From Spirochaetales bacterium (GTDB taxonomy: Bacteria > Spirochaetota > Spirochaetia > DSM-2461), in the NCBI GenBank assembly GCA_016936295.1, contig JAFGYD010000003.1, forward strand, positions 1 through 33,567: DNA of 33,567 bases, in the 5' to 3' direction. Each line of letters starts with the position of its first letter. Position 1 is the first letter of the stretch. The notes beneath the pieces were generated by a model. The model was given only the letters and a program-made list of their open reading frames with translations, did no database searches and was not told the origin of the DNA. Made by a program: the position numbers and the translations under genes. Below are positions 2-14,624 of the stretch, piece after piece.

Positions 2-961
2 GATTTAAGAGAAAAAATGGCAAAGCTACCATATAACTCTTTAATGGCTTCTATGAATCAGTTAGATAATCACGATCACTCCAGGTTTTTAACTAGAACA
101 AGTGGAATTGTTGATAGTGAAAGGAGTAATACCGATGTTTCCAACCCTGTTGATGCTGATAAAGACCACAATTTAGGGATATTGAAGGAAGCTGTTGTTT
201 TACAGATGACACTACCAGGATCTCCTACACTATATTATGGAAACGAAGCTGGAGTTGCTGGTTTTACAGATCCCGATTCCAGAAGAACATATCCATGGGG
301 TAATGAGAACCAGGAATTACTTAGCTTCTATAAGGATATTATATCAATTCATAAAGAGTATTCATCATTAATAAACGGTTCAATGCAATCCCTCTATTTT
401 AATGAAGCTGGAGTCTACGCATTTGGTCGATGGAATAATGAAAATAGAGTTATTTCAGTTGTAAATAACAATTCGGTTGAAAAAACAATTCAAATCCCTG
501 TAGATTTATTAGGTTCTTTAAATGGAGATAAGTACATAGAGATATATGAGTCTTCGGAAGCTTCTCATGGAAGAGTAAATAAAAGCCAGAAGGTTACAGG
601 AAATATTATAACTGTTACAATCCCTGCTTTTGGTAGTAAAATTCTTGTTTCAGACGAAGTTGTGTTTACAGACATTGAAACGACTACAACTTATTTAAGA
701 CCAGTTGTTACAAATATTACAAAGGTTGATGGGGGTACAGTTATAACATTTGACCAACCAATGATTCAAAGAGATATTGAAGATGTTATTACAGTGACTC
801 CTAAAATAGATCTTGAATATTCATGGAATGGAAATAGACTTTTTGTAACTGCACCAAATGGATGGGATAAAAATATTGAGTATTCCTTTACAATAGGTAA
901 GGGTATAAGAAGTGTTAGAGGTGAATTTACACTTGGGAAAAGTATTAATTTTACTTATTAG
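2..961 (+). CDS. GH13 alpha-amylase-family glycoside hydrolase, 3' part only
   Basis: The gene begins before the window: the reading frame is open from base 2, so the ATG at 17 is internal. The visible part starts near conserved GH13 region IV, LDNHDHSRFL, which holds the His-Asp pair (Asp at about base 74) that stabilises the transition state. Next comes GSPTLYYGNEAG..DPDSRRTYPW, typical of neopullulanase/cyclomaltodextrinase-like amylases. The nucleophile and acid/base residues lie in the missing part. After the barrel comes the usual C-terminal beta domain, then (about the last 85 residues) a bacterial Ig-like Big_5/SbsA domain with FDQPM, ITVTP and YSFTIGKGIRS. That tail suggests an exported enzyme, but the N terminus is not visible. 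It likely hydrolyses alpha-glucans or maltodextrins; exact specificity cannot be told. The family call is firm. Confidence 0.9.
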   Translation, partial: DLREKMAKLPYNSLMASMNQLDNHDHSRFLTRTSGIVDSERSNTDVSNPVDADKDHNLGILKEAVVLQMTLPGSPTLYYGNEAGVAGFTDPDSRRTYPWGNENQELLSFYKDIISIHKEYSSLINGSMQSLYFNEAGVYAFGRWNNENRVISVVNNNSVEKTIQIPVDLLGSLNGDKYIEIYESSEASHGRVNKSQKVTGNIITVTIPAFGSKILVSDEVVFTDIETTTTYLRPVVTNITKVDGGTVITFDQPMIQRDIEDVITVTPKIDLEYSWNGNRLFVTAPNGWDKNIEYSFTIGKGIRSVRGEFTLGKSINFTY

Positions 962-6358: not shown

Positions 6359-6376
6359 AGGTTTAATAAGTATTTG

Positions 6377-6412
6377 AAAATATGGGGAGTAGATAATTCC
6401 CCATATTTTTTT
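6377..6412 (-). terminator. Terminator hairpin of the CBM48-barrel operon
   Basis: A perfect 12-bp stem (6377-6388 with 6398-6409) with a 9-base loop, 15 bases past the stop of the last lipoprotein gene. The stem core is TATGGGGA/TCCCCATA. On the minus strand the T-run is inside the stem (TTTT). On the plus strand seven Ts follow, so it could also block transcription entering from the other side. Confidence 0.7.
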
Positions 6413-6424
6413 AGTTTAATAAAA

Positions 6425-7654
6425 TTAGTTTGCTGTAACAGTTAATTTAGGTTTTCCTGATGTTGCATAATCTGTTGTAGAATAATCCATTTTTATTGTA
6501 TAGGAAGTTCCAGATACAGCTGTAAATAGGAAATTACCACTATCATCAGAAATTGTAACAGGAGAAGCTGAAATATCAGCATTTCCATAACCAATTAAAC
6601 CATCCCATTTAGAGTCTGCTTTAACTGCCCATTTAAATTTTTGTGCAACAGATGCTGTAGCTGTATAAGTATAAGTTGCTACTTTATCTGTTAATGAAAT
6701 TTCAGCTCGACCTGTATCTGCTTCAGACCAATTAGTCCAACCAGTTGTACTTAATTCACCTAATAAATAAACTTTAGCTGGTGCTTCAAATGCCCAATCA
6801 GTAGTTCCAACTGTTTTTAATGTAACAACCATTGAGTATTTACCCTCTGCTACAGTTTTTGTAGGGTCAATAGTTACTACTAATGTGTAAACAGAATCGG
6901 ATTTTGGAGGATTGTTTATTAATATATTTCCAGATGCTGTAGTTGTTAAAGTAACTGCTGTTGCTGAACTTCCAGCTGTTGTTGGAGAGTCTATTGCATC
7001 ACATTTTAAAAATCCATCTAAAGAACTAAAACCAAAAGTTCCTGTTTTTGATGCCATTGTAACATCAAATGATACTGTTTTTGCAGTTTCATCCGCAGTT
7101 CCTGCAGTTTCTGTCCAACCAATAGTAAATGCATCACCCTTTACAAGTAGTTTACTTGCTAATAAGGCAAAGTCTGGAGCAGAAGCGTCTGTAGCTCCTG
7201 GTATTATTGTTACAGATGGAGCTGTTGGTGTACTAATATCTACTCGAACAGTATAACTTGTTTTTGCTGCTTTAAAAGTTGCATTTGTTTGATCATCAGC
7301 TACATCTGTAAAAACAACCGCAGTCTCTGATACTGTAGCAGAAGTTTTTGGAGCTTTCCACTCTTTATCATCACCATCTACTAAAACAAATTCATAATCC
7401 AAGATTAGTAAATCTTCAATCTCAAATGTTAATATATTACTATCTAGTTCATCTACTGTAAAATAGTGTCTTGTTCCATCATCTACAGAAGCTGCCCAAT
7501 TGTCAAAGCTTCCTTTAATCCACCATTGTGATTTCAATGCTGTGTTGTCTCTGTCATCTGTATCATCGGTAGAACTGTCTCCACCAAGTACATCACAAGA
7601 TACAAATGCTACAAGAAGTAGTAACATTCCCAGTAATTTGAATAAATTCTTCAT
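6425..7654 (-). CDS. Multi-domain glycan-binding-like lipoprotein (SusE/F-like layout)
   Basis: A 409-residue lipoprotein: signal MKNLFKLLGMLLLLVAFVSC with the lipid-bearing Cys at about 20, then an acidic linker. The mature part seems to be three tandem beta-sandwich modules of about 110-130 residues. They begin near WWIKGSFDNW, KLLVKGDAFTIGW and VYLLGELSTTGWTNW. The first and third end with TSYTVRVDIST and TSYTIKMDYST. Patterns such as GSFDNW resemble the starch-binding modules of Bacteroidetes SusE/SusF and CBM48-type E-set domains, so glycan binding is inferred. It is the last gene of the barrel operon, 45 bases after the second barrel, with GGAG before the ATG. Being a lipoprotein of a diderm, it could be periplasmic or surface-exposed. 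Confidence 0.75.
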   Translation of the reverse strand: MKNLFKLLGMLLLLVAFVSCDVLGGDSSTDDTDDRDNTALKSQWWIKGSFDNWAASVDDGTRHYFTVDELDSNILTFEIEDLLILDYEFVLVDGDDKEWKAPKTSATVSETAVVFTDVADDQTNATFKAAKTSYTVRVDISTPTAPSVTIIPGATDASAPDFALLASKLLVKGDAFTIGWTETAGTADETAKTVSFDVTMASKTGTFGFSSLDGFLKCDAIDSPTTAGSSATAVTLTTTASGNILINNPPKSDSVYTLVVTIDPTKTVAEGKYSMVVTLKTVGTTDWAFEAPAKVYLLGELSTTGWTNWSEADTGRAEISLTDKVATYTYTATASVAQKFKWAVKADSKWDGLIGYGNADISASPVTISDDSGNFLFTAVSGTSYTIKMDYSTTDYATSGKPKLTVTAN

Positions 7655-7674
7655 TTTTTTCTCCTTATATCCTA

Positions 7675-7691
7675 TGCCGGTTTCCCGGTCA
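7675..7691 (-). other. GC hairpin between second barrel and its lipoprotein gene
   Basis: On the minus strand CCGG-GAAA-CCGG forms a short stem with a GNRA-type loop, extended by TG/CA around a one-base bulge. It is the only GC-rich patch in the 45-base gap. It may be an mRNA-stabilising or processing hairpin that sets different levels for barrel and lipoprotein. It lacks a T-run, so a terminator is unlikely. Confidence 0.4.
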
Positions 7692-7699
7692 TATACAAA

Positions 7700-9589
7700 T
7701 TAATAATCCCAAACAATACCAAATCTGAACGCTGCTTCGCCTTCTGAATTGTTGCTGAGTCTATAGTCAGATAAGTCAGCACTATCTGTTCCTGTTAGGT
7801 AAGGGTCTATGTTGTAAACATAGTTTGCGTATAAATGTGGTTTTTGTGATTTGGCAGATGGTATCTCCCATTTGGTACCAATAGAGAAACCAAATGGATA
7901 GTCAATATCTGACCCTGATCTAATCCCAATTCCAACTTCGGTTGTTAAATTCTGTGGTAATTTAACTTCCAGAAGTAGTGTATTAAACATAATGTCAGAA
8001 TTGCTTCGGTCTAAACCATAATTTAGGGTGTAGTCTCCGGAATTGAATTTTGCACCAACTAAAATAACAGGGGTTTCATCTTCTTCAGGTTTACTATTTA
8101 TTGAGATATCTGCATAAATATCACCGTCGATTGTTAATCCTGCAATTTGTGGAAGTATAAATTTTGCGCCTGGAACAAAATTCATTTTTATATTTGAATC
8201 TGCAGGATTTTCATCGGCCATTTCAAAGCTCATATTTAACTTTGGAGTAATGCTTTCATTTATTGTGTAAGAGGAGTTTAAATAAACAGTTTGTGTGTCT
8301 TGTAAACCTAAAATGTCGTCGGTGTTTGCATATAAAAACTGTGCAGCATAACCTCTTAATTTATATCCTAGAACAAAACTATATAAATCATCTTCACTAT
8401 ATTCAACACTTCCTTCAACCCCCAATCTATCCTCAAAAGGTCTATCCATTAAAGGACTTGTTTCAAGAAAGGTTGATGATAATGTTTGAACTTTTATCAT
8501 TAAGCTATTTAGTTTATACCCAACTCCCAGGATTAAATCCTGTCTTGTTATATCTGTAAAAACATCTTGAAATGAATCTGTTGTACTAGATTTCATTTCA
8601 TACTCTATGTCAGCTTCTAATGAACCTATGCTTGCATTAAGATATGAAAATAGACTATAAAAATCTGATAATGATTTATTAGGAATAATACCTGCATTAA
8701 TATCTAAGCCTATAGATTCTATGGATTGAGATGTTGAGAATTTACTATATCCATCATCAGCTATAGTTTCATCCTCTTTAATGCTTTCCCAAATTATTGA
8801 ACTGTATTTTGGAATTGTACTGTTACCATAACCTGACTCATAGGCGATATACTTTGTGTCAAAACCAAAAGTAAATTTATCAAGCGCAGGACGTTTACTA
8901 TCTCCTAAATAGTAGACAGGATTAAATATAAACCCTGAAGCAAGTGTTTCCAGTCCATCAGTAATTTCTAAATCGTTAGCATCATTCCATATAGATGCAG
9001 AACCATCAAAAAAAGTTAACTCCATGTAAGCAGGCATGTTAGCCACAATATCACCCTTGAATTTCCATATTGATTTTGCGTTAATGGAAGAATCAACTGC
9101 ATCATGTTTACTATCAACTGTTGTAAAAGATGTATCACTTTCAATATACGTTGTTGTACTGAAAGTTGATTTTTCTCTTGTTTTTACTACTGGTGCAGTT
9201 GTTACATCAGTACTAAGAGGTGTCGCAGCTAATAAATCGGCAACAATTATAAGACCATTCATTCCTGCATAACCATCATCTTTTTGTGCTGGTGCTTGTG
9301 GATCTGAAATATAGTTTCCATCTATATAAAATTTGTAAACAATTTCATCATCGGGAAAAGTTAATAATTTATACTCCCAAATACCGTCACTATTTTTTGT
9401 CATTGGTAGACCTGGTGCGCTCCAATCACAAAATGATCCAATTACATTCATTTCGGGGGATTCTGAATCTTCATATAAAAAAGTTATTTCAGCTTGCCCA
9501 TCATTTAGTGCTTTTACTTTTATTTCAGAAAAAGCAGGTAGACTGAGAATAGATAGGATTCCCAGTAACAAAAATATTTTTTTTAACAT
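7700..9589 (-). CDS. CBM48-type domain fused to outer-membrane beta-barrel (copy 2)
   Basis: A 629-residue exported protein. The signal peptide (MLKKIFLLLGILSILSLPAFSE) leads into an E-set/AMPK-glycogen-binding (CBM48-like) domain at about residues 24-115: VIGSFCDWSAPGLPM, YKFYIDGNYISDP and QKDDGYAGMNG. Then come about 500 residues of alternating polar/aromatic strands. The chain ends in AAFRFGIVWDY with a terminal aromatic residue, the usual recognition signal of outer-membrane barrels. It is a clear paralogue of the barrel ending at 10096, with the same domain order and similar ends (YVYNIDPY versus FVYNMDPY). A glycan-binding porin for oligosaccharide uptake is inferred, not shown. It lies 12 bases after the small lipoprotein gene. 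GGAG is in the leader. Confidence 0.8.
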   Translation of the reverse strand: MLKKIFLLLGILSILSLPAFSEIKVKALNDGQAEITFLYEDSESPEMNVIGSFCDWSAPGLPMTKNSDGIWEYKLLTFPDDEIVYKFYIDGNYISDPQAPAQKDDGYAGMNGLIIVADLLAATPLSTDVTTAPVVKTREKSTFSTTTYIESDTSFTTVDSKHDAVDSSINAKSIWKFKGDIVANMPAYMELTFFDGSASIWNDANDLEITDGLETLASGFIFNPVYYLGDSKRPALDKFTFGFDTKYIAYESGYGNSTIPKYSSIIWESIKEDETIADDGYSKFSTSQSIESIGLDINAGIIPNKSLSDFYSLFSYLNASIGSLEADIEYEMKSSTTDSFQDVFTDITRQDLILGVGYKLNSLMIKVQTLSSTFLETSPLMDRPFEDRLGVEGSVEYSEDDLYSFVLGYKLRGYAAQFLYANTDDILGLQDTQTVYLNSSYTINESITPKLNMSFEMADENPADSNIKMNFVPGAKFILPQIAGLTIDGDIYADISINSKPEEDETPVILVGAKFNSGDYTLNYGLDRSNSDIMFNTLLLEVKLPQNLTTEVGIGIRSGSDIDYPFGFSIGTKWEIPSAKSQKPHLYANYVYNIDPYLTGTDSADLSDYRLSNNSEGEAAFRFGIVWDY

Positions 9590-9601
9590 TAATTACTCCT
9601 A

Positions 9602-10075
9602 TTAATCCTTGTAGCCCCAAGTAACACTGTCACCATCTACTACACCTTCTACCACTACTGGATTTAAACTACCTGTCCATAAATTCTCAAGCTCAATATC
9701 TCCACCACTTAACCCGCTATGTTTTGTATCAATTTTTAAAGAATCCCAGGTTTTATCAGGGTCTATTAGTAAAAAACTGAATTCTGGTGTTGTGATTTCC
9801 AGTGCAGGACTAAAATTGTATGTTAAAGTTCCCTCGGCTGTTACAGTTCCAATAAATGTACTATCTGTAAATCTGTCACCATCGTGACCCCAAACTGTCC
9901 CATCATAATGGGAGAGTACCATTTGTTGCCCTTCGGGATAGGTTGAAGATGGTAACCCTGTAACAGTTACCTGAGAAACTACCATCTCAGTTCCATTATG
10001 AAGTTCATTACTGCAACTACTTAAACCTAGTAAAGTAATAATCAAAATAGTTAAAATTGCTTTTTTATTTATCAT
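9602..10075 (-). CDS. Small lipoprotein of unknown function in barrel operon
   Basis: A 157-residue lipoprotein with signal MINKKAILTILIITLLGLSSC and lipobox LSSC. The mature part is short and beta-rich (VSQVTVTGLP, YPEGQQMVLSHYDG, FSFLLIDPDKTWDSL); I recognise no named family. I placed the start at the ATG at 10075, because the signal peptide begins there and AAGGA/AGAGGA stands just upstream. An in-frame ATG at 10108 would add 11 polar residues and overlap the preceding gene. It sits between the two CBM48 barrels, 20 bases after the first and 12 before the second. An accessory subunit of barrel 1 is a reasonable guess, mirroring the lipoprotein after barrel 2. Confidence 0.72.
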   Translation of the reverse strand: MINKKAILTILIITLLGLSSCSNELHNGTEMVVSQVTVTGLPSSTYPEGQQMVLSHYDGTVWGHDGDRFTDSTFIGTVTAEGTLTYNFSPALEITTPEFSFLLIDPDKTWDSLKIDTKHSGLSGGDIELENLWTGSLNPVVVEGVVDGDSVTWGYKD

Positions 10076-10095
10076 TCCTCTTTCCTTCAATTCCA

Positions 10096-12072
10096 TTAGA
10101 AATCCCATTTAAGCATTACTCTTAATTGAGCATCTCCATCACCCTTTGATGCGCCATCGGTTGTAACAAAATCACTAAATGCTAAGTTGTTTGTACCATC
10201 ATCGTATGGATCCATGTTGTAAACAAATGCTCCATATAGTAGGGGCGTTTTAATTTTTCTAACTGGAACTTTCCATGATCCACCAACCGAGAAACCAAAA
10301 ATATTATTAGTATCTGTTTCAGCTTGTGTAGCCCCGCTTCTTAAAGTTCTTAGACCAAACCCTATTTCAGCTTTTAAATCATTAGGAAATGAAAAAGATG
10401 AAATTAAAGTATTAAATATTTTATCTTCATCGTTGTTGTTAAATCCGTAGACAATATCCATATTAGCTATTGAGGGTAGTGGGTTTGATATATTTAATTT
10501 TGCCCCAATTTCAGAAAGCAGAAATCTTGAATCAGATGCAACATATAGATAGTTTTCTTCAATTATGTAATTTAATTTAGTGTAAAAGTTAAACCATCCA
10601 TTTATTCCAGAGATTTGTGATAGATCCAAATCTGCATAAGGTTTTAAATAGATATCATCTGCACTATCGTTTGCTGATTCCTCTCTTAAACGAAGTTCTG
10701 TATATCCCCCAACTTTAAGTAGTGCTGCAGGTTTTCCATAGATATCAAATGCAATCGTTTGCACTCCAGTAGACCCAAGGGCATCATCATTATTTCCAAA
10801 TAGTAGGGAAGCATCTTCACCTGTTAATCTATATTTTCCTGTAATCCCAAAGCTATCACTACTATTGTTCCATTTAACTTTAGCTTCACCGGATATATGT
10901 TTCTGCGCATCGAAATCATCTTCGCTATAGAGATTTATAAGTGATTGAGCAGTTACATCCACTCTCCCTATGGTTGTAGTTCCACCAATAATAAAATCCT
11001 GGTGATATAACTTGTCAAATATTGTTGAAAGATCCGAAGATGCCGCAGATTTCATATCATATTGGAAATCAACTTTTGCTTTATTGAAATTCGCTGATAC
11101 CCAACCCATTAAACCATAATTTCCAGTAATCATATTAGGTATAATAGATGCTTCAATATTTGCAGTACCTACTTTTTGCAGATTTGAACCAAGGTCAAAC
11201 CGCATATAACCATTGTTTGCATCTTTTGCTTCAAGTGTTTCCCAAAGTAAAGAAGTTCGTCCTTGGGCTTTTGCGTAACCATATCCAGTTTCCCAATTAA
11301 CATAATTGGAACTAATACCATATTTTACAGAGTTTAATACTGGATTTCCATTTCCTATATAGTTAACTGGATTTACCAGCATTCCTGCTAAAAGATTGGA
11401 TAGACCAGCATCTGCTTCTGTTGTATGTATACCCCTTGAATCCTGCTCCCAAAATGCCTGGTATGCATCAAAAGCCTTAATTTCAAACCACATATTAACA
11501 TCCGGGACAATAGTTCCACCCATTTTTAAGTATGATTTACCATATAATCCTGTAGTGTCAGCTTCCAGGCCTTTATCTGTTTTGTCTACTACACCCTGGG
11601 TTGAAAATGTAGAACGTGAACCCAGAATTGTATACATTCCAAAGTTTAGTTTACTTTTATATACTGTTTCTACCGGTACTTCTGAACCAGATACAGGCGC
11701 AGCAGGTTGGGATAATAGATCGGAAACAACTATTAATCCATTTAAACCGGCATAACCATCATCTTTTGTTGCAGGTGCATTGGGATCTGATATCCATGAG
11801 TCGTTATAATAAAATTTATATAGAATCTCATCATCAATTAATGCTTCCATTCTATATTCCCAGCTTCCATTCTCAAGTTTCGTCATTGGAGTACCTGGAG
11901 CAGTCCAGTTATTAAATGAACCCACTACATTAACTTCATTTGTTGAATCATCTACATGTGTGAAAATAATTTCAACTTTTGTACCATCAATATTTTTTAC
12001 TACAACATCTGCATATGAGTATATTGCAATAGAAAACATTAAGACCATTGTTGACAATAGTCGTTTTGTCAC
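10096..12072 (-). CDS. CBM48-type domain fused to outer-membrane beta-barrel (copy 1)
   Basis: A 658-residue protein starting with GTG at 12072. That start gives a proper signal peptide (VTKRLLSTMVLMFSIAIYSYA) and has AGGAGG five bases ahead. The longer frame from an ATG at 12177 would put 35 extra residues over the operators and is unlikely. A CBM48-like domain follows (VVGSFNNWTAPGTPM, YKFYYNDSWISDP, TKDDGYAGLNG), then about 550 residues of predicted barrel ending in RVMLKWDF with a C-terminal Phe. It is paralogous to the barrel at 7700-9589. The likely role is an outer-membrane channel with an attached glycan-binding domain; whether that domain faces the periplasm or surface is unknown. 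It is first in a four-gene operon under three LacI-type operator-like sites. Confidence 0.82.
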   Translation of the reverse strand: MTKRLLSTMVLMFSIAIYSYADVVVKNIDGTKVEIIFTHVDDSTNEVNVVGSFNNWTAPGTPMTKLENGSWEYRMEALIDDEILYKFYYNDSWISDPNAPATKDDGYAGLNGLIVVSDLLSQPAAPVSGSEVPVETVYKSKLNFGMYTILGSRSTFSTQGVVDKTDKGLEADTTGLYGKSYLKMGGTIVPDVNMWFEIKAFDAYQAFWEQDSRGIHTTEADAGLSNLLAGMLVNPVNYIGNGNPVLNSVKYGISSNYVNWETGYGYAKAQGRTSLLWETLEAKDANNGYMRFDLGSNLQKVGTANIEASIIPNMITGNYGLMGWVSANFNKAKVDFQYDMKSAASSDLSTIFDKLYHQDFIIGGTTTIGRVDVTAQSLINLYSEDDFDAQKHISGEAKVKWNNSSDSFGITGKYRLTGEDASLLFGNNDDALGSTGVQTIAFDIYGKPAALLKVGGYTELRLREESANDSADDIYLKPYADLDLSQISGINGWFNFYTKLNYIIEENYLYVASDSRFLLSEIGAKLNISNPLPSIANMDIVYGFNNNDEDKIFNTLISSFSFPNDLKAEIGFGLRTLRSGATQAETDTNNIFGFSVGGSWKVPVRKIKTPLLYGAFVYNMDPYDDGTNNLAFSDFVTTDGASKGDGDAQLRVMLKWDF

Positions 12073-12096
12073 ATTCTCCTCCTGTGTTTTTATACA

Positions 12097-12110
12097 TGTT
12101 AACGTTTGTA
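12097..12110. promoter_or_regulatory. LacI/GalR-type operator-like site O3
   Basis: TGTTAACGTTTGTA, CG-centred, matches the LacI-family consensus TGnAAnCGnTTnCA except at two positions. It lies 33 bp from O2, in the leader of the barrel operon, 24 bp from the GTG start. Confidence 0.45.
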
Positions 12111-12129
12111 CCGAAATAAGATGATTAAT

Positions 12130-12143
12130 TGCAATCGGTTGTA
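12130..12143. promoter_or_regulatory. LacI/GalR-type operator-like site O2
   Basis: TGCAATCGGTTGTA, CG-centred, has one mismatch to TGnAAnCGnTTnCA. Its centre is 33 bp from the centres of both O1 and O3, so all three lie on roughly the same face of the DNA. Confidence 0.6.
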
Positions 12144-12154
12144 ATTCGGTATAA

Positions 12155-12187
12155 ATCATTATTGCAACCGCTTGCATTTTCTGTCAA
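12155..12187 (-). promoter_or_regulatory. Promoter of the CBM48-barrel operon with operator O1
   Basis: On the minus strand TTGACA (12182-12187) is followed after 18 bp by AATAAT (12158-12163). The spacer holds O1, TGCAACCGCTTGCA as read on the plus strand (12163-12176), a perfect palindromic match to the LacI-family consensus TGnAAnCGnTTnCA. A repressor there would block polymerase. The -35 sits just after the T-run of the GH3 terminator. No LacI-type gene is in the window. Confidence 0.6.
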
Positions 12188-12216
12188 CAAAAAAATGATG
12201 AAATAATCATCATTTT
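12188..12216 (-). terminator. Terminator of the GH3 gene, overlapping its stop codon
   Basis: A 10-bp stem AAAATGATGA/TCATCATTTT (12192-12201 with 12207-12216) with a 5-base loop, followed on the minus strand by a run of seven Ts. The hairpin includes the TGA stop of the GH3 gene (12210-12212). It separates GH3 from the barrel operon, which has its own promoter. Confidence 0.75.
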
Positions 12217-14624
12217 AAAATGTTGTAAATTCCCTTAAAGATATTTTTATTCATAAATGCAATAAGTCCTGCTACTTTTGTCCTGCTAAGTTTCCCTCCG
12301 CTAAATAGCATTGCACTTCTTATTGGTAAATCCTCTATCATTGCTTTCATCATTCTCTCCATTCTAGGGTCAATTACTACAGAATCAGTAGCTGGAGGAA
12401 GAAATGCCTTGTAGGCAGAGTTATACATTTTTTTCCCAATGAATGTTTTTTTTACATCACCTAGAGTTGAATTAATTGTGAACTTTTCACCTTTTTTCCG
12501 GAATCTTTTGGGAATAGGTCTACATAGAATTGTTTCAAATGTTCTATCGCTAATATTCCCGCTTGAAATGTTATAGTATTCAGGTGTTAGTTCTCTTAAA
12601 TCGGGAACTATTACATCTGGTTTTGTGGATGCTACATTTATCTCCGATTTTAGGCGAATATCTCTACTTGAGGATCCAACAAGAATTGAGAAAACTCCAG
12701 ACTCTACATGCCAATCTTTAATATCAATGTTATAGTATGCAAAAGATCTTTTATTTAGTGTAAATGTAATTGTTTTTGATTCATTTGGCTCCAGATAAAC
12801 TTTTTTAAACCCTTTTAGCTCCTTTTCCGGTCTAAAAAGAGTGGTAATATTATCTTTTACATATAGTTGGACAATTTCTGCACCAGGAATTTTCCCAATA
12901 TTTTTTATAGTGACTGTGACATCGACCTCTTCATTATCTGTTATACTCTGTTGACCCAGGATTATATCGCTATATTCAAAAGATGTATAACTTAAGCCGT
13001 GACCAAATGGGAATAAAACATCTTTTTTTGCACTATCATAATATCTGTATCCAACATATACAGATTCTCTGTATTCCACACTATTTGGACCCATTCCAAA
13101 CCATTCCGATGCTAAATCATCCCTTAAGTCCAGTGGGAAAGTTTCGGCAAGTTTACCCGATGGGTTTACATCTCCAAATATAATGTCAGCAATTGCAGCA
13201 CCTCCAGCTTGACCTCCCAGGTAACTCTCTAAAACCCCACTAACACCATCTATCCATGGCATAATCACAGGAGCTCCATTTTGTAGTACTACAATTATAT
13301 TTTTATGAACTGCAGAGATTGCTTTAATTAGTTTTGTATGGCTTTTAGGTAATCCTAAATGTGTTCTGTCAAATCCTTCAGATTCGTAATCATCGGTAAG
13401 ACCCGCAAAAATTATTACAACAGAACTCTCTTTTGCCTTTTGAACAGCCTCTTTTATCAAATCCTCTTTTGGTTCGTCTGTATCTATTGAGTAGCCTTTA
13501 CAGTAATTATGTTCAATTTTTTGATTGTTTAGTTCATCTAAAAAACTTGTAACTTTTATTGGATTTATTAATGAACTTCCTGCTCCCTGGTATCTCGGTT
13601 TATCTGCAAATTCGCCAATAACCAGTGGTACCGAATTTTTTAATATAGGTAGCGTATTGTTTAAATTTTTTAATAATACTGCCGAATTTGAAGCAGCTTC
13701 TCTAGCTAGTTTGTTGTGTTCTTCAGTATTGAATTTTTTACCTTTGGGTGTATTAATACTTTTTTGAATTAATTCTAAAATTCTTATAACAACTTTATCT
13801 AAATATTTTTCATCAAGTGTACCGTTATTTACAGCTTCTACAATAAGCTTATCGTTAATTCCACCACTAGAAGGCATTTCAAGTTCTAAACCTGCTTTAA
13901 CCCCCAGTACTCTATCATTACATGCACCCCAATCAGTTACAACAAGGCCAGTATGTCCCCATTCCTCTTTTAGTATATCTGTTAATAATTTTTTATTATC
14001 ACTACAGTAAAATCCATCCACCATATTATATGCGCACATTACAGTCCATGGTTGAGCTGTTTTTACAATCTCTTCAAAGCCAGGCAGGTATATCTCTCTT
14101 TGAGTTCTTTCGTCAACAACAGATTCAGTTACCATTCTTCTATATTCCTGGTTATTAAATGCAAAATGTTTTAGCGAAGTTCCAATACCCTTACTTTGAA
14201 CACCTTTAACTAATGCACTTCCAATTTTTCCTGTTAAGTAGGGATCTTCAGATATATATTCAAAATTTCTACCACAAAGTGGAGACCTTTTTATATTTGC
14301 TCCAGGACCTAAAATAACAGAAACATCTTCCTGTATACACTCTTCCCCTAAAGCTTCTCCAATTTTGAAAAGTAATTCAGGATCCCAGGAGCTGGCAGTT
14401 GCAGATGCTGTTGGAAAGCAGGTCGATTTTATACTCTCACCCAAACCTACATGATCACCTTCCTGTGGTTGTTTACGCAAACCATGAGGTCCATCAGCTA
14501 CCATAATAGATGGGATATTAAGTCTTTCTATGCTTTTTAAATGCCAAAAATCTTCACCTGAACAAAGAGATGCCTTTTCCTCTAAAGTCATTGAAGCAAG
14601 TAATATATTAATATCATCTATCAT
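12210..14624 (-). CDS. Glycoside hydrolase family 3 beta-glycosidase (beta-glucosidase-like)
   Basis: An 804-residue GH3 enzyme that removes beta-linked sugars from non-reducing ends. The TIM-barrel part shows MVADGPHGLR, GRNFEYISEDPYL, SLKHFAFNNQE and the nucleophile Asp231 in LVVTDWGACNDR. The alpha/beta sandwich (QGAGSSLINP, AGLTDDYESEGFDR) and a C-terminal fibronectin III-like domain (VTIKNIGKIPGAEIVQLYV) follow. A further tail of about 130 residues resembles the one seen in some clostridial GH3 enzymes. There is no signal peptide, so it is cytoplasmic and would act on imported oligosaccharides or glycosides. The specificity (glucosidase or xylosidase) is unresolved. AGGAG precedes the ATG. 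It lies directly upstream of the CBM48-barrel operon but is separated from it by a terminator. Confidence 0.93.
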   Translation of the reverse strand: MIDDINILLASMTLEEKASLCSGEDFWHLKSIERLNIPSIMVADGPHGLRKQPQEGDHVGLGESIKSTCFPTASATASSWDPELLFKIGEALGEECIQEDVSVILGPGANIKRSPLCGRNFEYISEDPYLTGKIGSALVKGVQSKGIGTSLKHFAFNNQEYRRMVTESVVDERTQREIYLPGFEEIVKTAQPWTVMCAYNMVDGFYCSDNKKLLTDILKEEWGHTGLVVTDWGACNDRVLGVKAGLELEMPSSGGINDKLIVEAVNNGTLDEKYLDKVVIRILELIQKSINTPKGKKFNTEEHNKLAREAASNSAVLLKNLNNTLPILKNSVPLVIGEFADKPRYQGAGSSLINPIKVTSFLDELNNQKIEHNYCKGYSIDTDEPKEDLIKEAVQKAKESSVVIIFAGLTDDYESEGFDRTHLGLPKSHTKLIKAISAVHKNIIVVLQNGAPVIMPWIDGVSGVLESYLGGQAGGAAIADIIFGDVNPSGKLAETFPLDLRDDLASEWFGMGPNSVEYRESVYVGYRYYDSAKKDVLFPFGHGLSYTSFEYSDIILGQQSITDNEEVDVTVTIKNIGKIPGAEIVQLYVKDNITTLFRPEKELKGFKKVYLEPNESKTITFTLNKRSFAYYNIDIKDWHVESGVFSILVGSSSRDIRLKSEINVASTKPDVIVPDLRELTPEYYNISSGNISDRTFETILCRPIPKRFRKKGEKFTINSTLGDVKKTFIGKKMYNSAYKAFLPPATDSVVIDPRMERMMKAMIEDLPIRSAMLFSGGKLSRTKVAGLIAFMNKNIFKGIYNILK

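Follow-up and report, generated by a model that had tools for sequence, protein, structure and literature searches.

By which route do glycans cross the outer membrane of polysaccharide-using spirochaetes? For those of gut, rumen, termite and sediment this passage is largely undescribed; the passages found of a termite study report ABC transporters and enzyme clusters, and no outer-membrane route of spirochaetes (PMC7264248). The question is raised by a four-gene operon in a stretch of 33,567 nucleotides (the window), which is contig JAFGYD010000003.1 of the Spirochaetales assembly GCA_016936295.1 (contig C260 of a 2.85-Mb metagenome-assembled genome, here G000, in 284 contigs and 81% complete). 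On the minus strand, from 12072 to 6425, the operon encodes barrel 1, lipoprotein 1, barrel 2 and lipoprotein 2. A preliminary description had read these genes, in this order, as two barrel-lipoprotein pairs and had proposed a spirochaetal alternative to the starch utilisation system (Sus) of Bacteroides; the layout was confirmed, and the proposal is supported by the sequences and models presented here. We consider it highly probable that spirochaetes use the products of this operon to bring alpha-glucan (starch, glycogen, maltodextrin) across the outer membrane, as the import stage of its utilisation; in function they would correspond to Sus and the maltoporins, with another kind of channel. 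The computations directly show the gene order, the duplication, the folds, the invariance of the glucan-binding residues, the shared operator and the genomic linkage.

The two barrels are paralogues, as had been claimed: they aligned over their full length with 32% identity (E 1.7e-89). In a tree of 45 homologues the barrel 1 clade and the barrel 2 clade are sisters with support 100, which points to a single tandem duplication older than the seven genomes in which the four genes keep this order (it was also found in G015 and G014 and at loci L015, L016, L017 and L019). Barrel 1 was modelled with AlphaFold2 using the 45 homologues, and the result was a large barrel in which 24 membrane strands were counted (residues 120-636; mean predicted local distance difference test score, pLDDT, 89.2); the barrel of barrel 2 is assigned by homology. 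Across the 45 homologues, alternate strand residues are hydrophobic outward and polar inward, a pattern for which 0 of 2000 shuffles were as extreme, and the two chains terminate in F and Y, in agreement with the outer-membrane barrel with a C-terminal aromatic residue that had been expected. The start of barrel 1 is most likely the GTG at 12072 behind AGGAGG, rather than the ATG of the open reading frame (ORF) at 12177.

The model also speaks to the side of the membrane on which the N-terminal domain lies. The connections average 14.3 residues after odd strands and 4.3 after even strands, which in the model is the pattern of surface loops and periplasmic turns. Given this pattern and the even number of strands, both chain ends, and hence the CBM48 domain at the N-terminus, would be periplasmic, unless the domain folds into the pore or threads outward. 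CBM48 thus probably sits on the periplasmic side or in the pore and not on the surface, so the surface-exposed domain implied by the preliminary description gives way, and with it the idea that the barrel is a fused SusD/E/F.

That the N-terminal domain belongs to the CBM48 type was established by family and structure searches. Barrel 1 matched the Pfam families AMPK1_CBM (PF16561; E 3.7e-6, 27.5 bits against a curated cut-off of 26.8) and CBM_48 (PF02922; E 5.1e-5, 23.9 bits against 22.4), while barrel 2 fell slightly under both curated cut-offs (AMPK1_CBM, E 1.1e-4). When the domain was searched against the PDB, structures of the AMPK beta glycogen-binding domain ranked first, with E about 3e-4 for the single sequence and 7.7e-6 for the profile. 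The E-set domain that had been claimed was therefore recovered, with its binding residues intact: among the rows carrying CBM48, W35 (40/40), K65 (41/41), W or Y72 (41/41) and N90 (42/42) are invariant, and these positions align to what we take to be the glycogen-contact residues of AMPK. Their invariance across sequences only about 30% identical argues that the barrel N-terminal domains retain alpha-glucan binding. Homology to the AMPK beta-subunit domain is thus detectable and extends to the aligned contact residues; the spirochaete domain differs in being joined to an outer-membrane barrel, instead of a kinase subunit or a GH13 (glycoside hydrolase, GH, family 13) enzyme.

The strongest single argument on the substrate is an operator that the operon shares with other genes. 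The promoter was the best of 29 promoter-like sites between 6300 and 12400, with 11/12 matches; as 29 is also the shuffle mean, the call rests on position and on overlap with the operator. This operator is the palindrome TGCAANCGNTTGCA, of the LacI-family type, which lies within the -35/-10 spacer and is followed 33 bp downstream by a copy with one mismatch. Allowing up to one mismatch, the palindrome occurs at 14 sites in the window genome and at 12 in G015, against 0 and 1, respectively, for the reversed pattern. Besides the barrel operon, exact sites mark the divergently arranged TIG and pullulanase promoters, a GH13 gene (in G015), a membrane regulator of the LuxR family bearing AMPK1_CBM, and two LacI genes, one of which diverges from GH65 and a beta-phosphoglucomutase-like gene. 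The G015 operon carries sites at -118 and -85, with the 33-bp spacing seen in the window, and a weaker one at -52, and exact copies also lie upstream of barrels in G014 and in the complete 2.56-Mb genome G074. Since the barrel operon has this operator in common with pullulanase, amylase and GH65 genes, its substrate is very probably an alpha-glucan, and a LacI/MalR-type protein encoded in the regulon may be what binds the site. The barrel promoters of most other genera lack this exact palindrome, so that the regulator there differs or has diverged. A third exact copy lies within the barrel 1 coding sequence (10750-10763), by chance or as an auxiliary regulatory site. The LuxR-family membrane regulators with an AMPK1_CBM-like domain and the same operator (L105:2672-4024 in G015; L098:1124-2506, on contig C258 of G000) adjoin a GH13 lipoprotein and are candidate direct starch sensors.

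The genomic neighbourhood of the relatives agrees with this substrate. A scan of a collection of species genomes returned 19 loci, all in Spirochaetota, including Treponema ruminis, Rectinema subterraneum and Gracilinema caldarium, and with a profile built from the barrel alone, members were detected in 30 of 395 genomes searched within the class. In G015 and G014 the four genes stand beside GH13 amylases, pullulanases and a TIG-domain lipoprotein; elsewhere single-copy barrels, each with a lipoprotein gene following it, mostly adjoin genes for GH13, pullulanase or GH57, and genes that read as MalE/F/G-like transporters lie nearby in several genomes. Among 20 genomes checked, 1.5 would be expected to have an alpha-glucan enzyme within 10 kb of a barrel, and 17 did; because these genomes are related, the nominal P of 2e-17 overstates the significance. 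Together with the shared operator, this linkage bears out the predicted co-occurrence with carbohydrate genes in relatives. Directly downstream of lipoprotein 2 in G015, on the same strand and possibly in the same operon, lies a gene that reads as CotH-like (L010:5780-7057).

Several observations weigh against the assignment to alpha-glucan import. The window contains no alpha-glucan enzyme other than a GH13 fragment; the nearby GH13 of the preliminary description is therefore present, as a C-terminal part cut by the contig edge. Loci of the Gracilinema caldarium type have no alpha-glucan neighbour, and housekeeping genes and a GH2-like gene are found there; the G207 locus shows no such neighbour either, and the system occurs in just 3 of 26 genomes of the same family. 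As to the structure, the barrel 1 model reached a predicted template-modelling score of 0.74 and contains a disordered linker at residues 103-117.

Variants of the architecture were seen further afield. In other classes of Spirochaetota (L111, L113, L114 and L116), CBM48-bearing proteins of 870-965 residues with barrel-like ends stand among lipoproteins, near a separate CBM48-like lipoprotein of about 145 amino acids (FNGWD...DDGFGGFN), and L114 also has a pullulanase. In some Treponema-like genomes (L074 of G207, and short matches to the binding domain only in G294, G178 and G182) CBM48 parts stand apart from a barrel or are broken by a stop codon, which gives the impression of a system in decay or split up.

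What do the lipoproteins contribute? Both carry a lipobox Cys. The AlphaFold2 model of lipoprotein 2 (pLDDT 81.6) has about three beta modules, and its top PDB match by Foldseek was SusF (4fe9; E 1.5e-7, probability 1.00), with an overall template-modelling score (TM-score) of only 0.23, as expected for flexibly linked modules. The second match was the X25-2 domain of Ruminococcus bromii Sca5 (E 1.9e-5), and AmyP-SBD and a pullulanase followed lower and more weakly. No SusE/F family matched lipoprotein 2 in Pfam or NCBIfam, where the sole match was Wzt_C at 0.065, and its sequence profile found nothing significant in the PDB. The likeness to SusE/SusF that had been noted thus holds for the lipobox, the modules and the fold, and not for the sequence family. 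Lipoproteins 1 and 2 matched each other at 90% in hhalign, partly through the signal peptide, and we treated this match as weak. A short motif, LH[D/N] or MH[D/N], follows within a few residues of the lipidated Cys in 22 of the 30 lipoproteins directly behind barrels, as opposed to 1 of 59 other lipobox proteins, that one being the next gene in such an operon. The LH[D/N] motif is kept even where the remaining lipoprotein is 18-20% identical to the window copy, and we infer that this segment may dock the partner lipoprotein to its barrel.

Seven homologues of the barrels have no CBM48 domain (G261, G341, G373, G375, G288, G299 and G345; loci L117 and L148-L153), and GH53 galactanase genes stand beside all seven (at two loci by Pfam, at the rest by reading). 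A GH35-like gene is present at four of these loci (one checked with Pfam), a GH2-like gene at one, and MalE/F-like transporter genes at several; for six of the seven barrels the next gene encodes a lipoprotein in which LHNQ or LHDQ follows the lipidated Cys. Such loci look like a version of the system for galactan. These barrels form one clade nested among the CBM48-bearing ones, next to G228, and G288 and G299 hold both kinds. The link between loss of CBM48 and galactan stems from one evolutionary event, and so is a suggestive, unreplicated association. The occurrence of barrels without CBM48 in GH53 loci suggests that the barrel is probably a general glycan channel, of which CBM48 would be the alpha-glucan-specific module.

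The system was then compared with known ones. The porin LamB is a trimer of 18-strand barrels and carries no binding domain. The spirochaete system resembles LamB and the enterobacterial mal regulon in its coordinated catabolic regulation and in the proposed passage of maltodextrin across the outer membrane to MalE/F/G; it differs in its barrel of about 24 strands with CBM48, and no LamB (PF02264) was found in 11 barrel-bearing genomes or in barrel 1 or barrel 2, by which a maltoporin was ruled out. With Sus of Bacteroides thetaiotaomicron (SusC/D/E/F/G; facts from PMC8211771) it shares an outer-membrane barrel, binding lipoproteins, one of them with SusF as its best fold match, and GH13 enzymes, in linked and substrate-regulated loci. 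Unlike Sus, it has no SusD (PF07980 in 0 of the 11 genomes, with a positive Bacteroides control), a barrel of about 24 strands that is not TonB-dependent by Pfam, a CBM48 fused at the N-terminus and a LacI-like regulator. Neither the TonB plug (PF07715) nor the TonB-dependent barrel (PF00593) matched barrel 1 or barrel 2, and a SusC/SusD pair was ruled out on the missing plug and SusD; no Pfam family at all matched the barrel domains of 33 homologues. The reported absence of a TonB-dependent receptor is true of the window; the genome encodes one plug-domain protein on another contig (G000:C15:13856-14143, in an 814-amino-acid frame), and PF00593 has no match in it. Many barrel-bearing spirochaetes likewise have exactly one TonB plug protein. 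By these tests the system is a counterpart of Sus and the maltoporins in its predicted function and a member of neither.

Could the barrels instead be surface adhesins or glycan anchors, with CBM48 threaded through the pore to hold cells to starch granules while no sugar passes? An N-terminal domain followed by a barrel superficially recalls an autotransporter, and lipoprotein 2 is a binding protein by fold. However, the translocator of an autotransporter has 12 strands, a number far exceeded here, and the long connections lie opposite the N-terminus, which places it in the periplasm. Homologues without the binding domain persist in galactan loci, so selection keeps the barrel itself, and the linkage to MalEFG-like importers also speaks for passage of sugar. 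We regard an anchoring role as unlikely.

The best Foldseek matches of the barrel 1 model, namely the 24-strand ushers PapC and FimD and porins, together with the alginate exporter AlgE, would fit pores that export or assemble glycan or enzymes. With TM-scores, by query length, of about 0.4 for the ushers and 0.24 for AlgE, these matches are weak and reflect strand number, the loci contain no chaperone, pilin or synthase genes, and both the neighbours and the LacI-type operator are catabolic, which makes export very improbable. An usher was ruled out on the low scores and the catabolic context: beyond the 24-strand barrel, no sequence similarity was detected, and pilus genes are missing from the spirochaete loci. 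The plug of an usher is a beta-sandwich domain as well, so a CBM48 seated in the pore is sterically conceivable. Equally improbable is a role in sensing or binding alpha-glucan at the envelope without transport, for example by signalling to the CBM48-bearing LuxR-type sensor, whose gene bears the same operator in G015 and G000, since two large pores per operon would be a costly sensor and, in the stretches read, a regulator of this kind is missing from most other genera.

For alpha-glucan import we propose the following mechanism. Amylase and pullulanase lipoproteins at the surface would cleave the polymer, while the SusF-like lipoprotein 2 and the small lipoprotein 1 would retain alpha-glucan at the outer membrane. 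Malto-oligosaccharides would cross via one or both 24-strand barrels, whose N-terminal CBM48, either periplasmic or seated within the pore, would capture or gate the chain; a MalE-type binding protein and MalFG would take the sugar onward, and a LacI/MalR-type regulator would repress transcription of the operon. We infer transport, absent energy coupling, the position of CBM48 and the pairing of lipoprotein with barrel from the features described above.

The features of the operon and its neighbours are collected in the table. The GH3 gene upstream, which the preliminary description had counted in, is present and is set off by the operon's own promoter; as it forms a separate transcription unit and is not beside the G015 operon, it was dropped as evidence on the substrate (its best NCBIfam models, of arabinopyranosidase and beta-glucosidase types, stayed under their cut-offs). 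Between 1037 and 4777 the window encodes an AraC-type regulator with a PocR domain and, after it, what read as genes for glycerol dehydrogenase, DhaK and DhaL (dihydroxyacetone kinase subunits), in all a glycerol/dihydroxyacetone operon by reading. A scan for viral contigs gave no match, as expected.

Table. Features of the barrel-lipoprotein operon and its neighbours in the window (a dot in the strand column: no strand assigned).
Feature	Position	Strand	Remark
Promoter TTGACA-18-AATAAT, TG before -10	12158..12187	-	top-scoring site in region
LacI-family-type operator TGCAACCGCTTGCA, in -35/-10 spacer	12163..12176	.	exact palindrome match
Second operator TGCAATCGGTTGTA, one mismatch, 33 bp from first	12130..12143	.	
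Barrel 1: signal peptide, CBM48/glycogen-binding domain, predicted beta-barrel of about 24 strands	10096..12072	-	GTG start behind AGGAGG
Barrel 1, CBM48/AMPK-type glycogen-binding domain	11724..12009	-	mature residues 1-95, approximate
Barrel 1, barrel domain	10099..11658	-	AlphaFold2 strands 120-636
Lipoprotein 1: single short module with LHNG right behind the lipobox Cys	9602..10075	-	ORF listed to 10108
Barrel 2: CBM48 domain and barrel, paralogous to barrel 1	7700..9589	-	
Lipoprotein 2: about three SusF/starch-binding-like beta modules	6425..7654	-	AlphaFold2 and PDB fold match
Terminator-like hairpin, 15 pairs, at operon end	6376..6410	.	called on + strand; hairpin palindromic
GH3 enzyme, neighbour outside the operon, own transcription unit	12210..14624	-	
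GH13 C-terminal fragment, neighbour	17..961	+	truncated at contig edge

In the literature searched, which left most subscription papers out of reach, we found no earlier description of this system; the barrel family itself is undescribed, and glycan uptake across the outer membrane is a known kind of function. The family provides a specific candidate for the outer-membrane route, for which a substrate and a regulon can be named and relatives such as Treponema ruminis can be grown in culture. It would be an independent solution, from largely unrelated parts, to the problem solved by Sus, and barrels with and without CBM48 offer a natural comparison for the effect of a pore-fused binding domain. 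More tentatively, and with the balance slightly against it, the glycan channels of the spirochaete outer membrane may form a family that evolved within the group, with no dependence on TonB, SusC/D or LamB. A generic barrel with a lipoprotein docked through LH[D/N] would carry an N-terminal domain that can be exchanged, lies towards the periplasm or the pore and sets the substrate: CBM48 for alpha-glucan, or none for beta-galactan. CBM48 would then take the place of energy coupling, as an affinity trap or gate.

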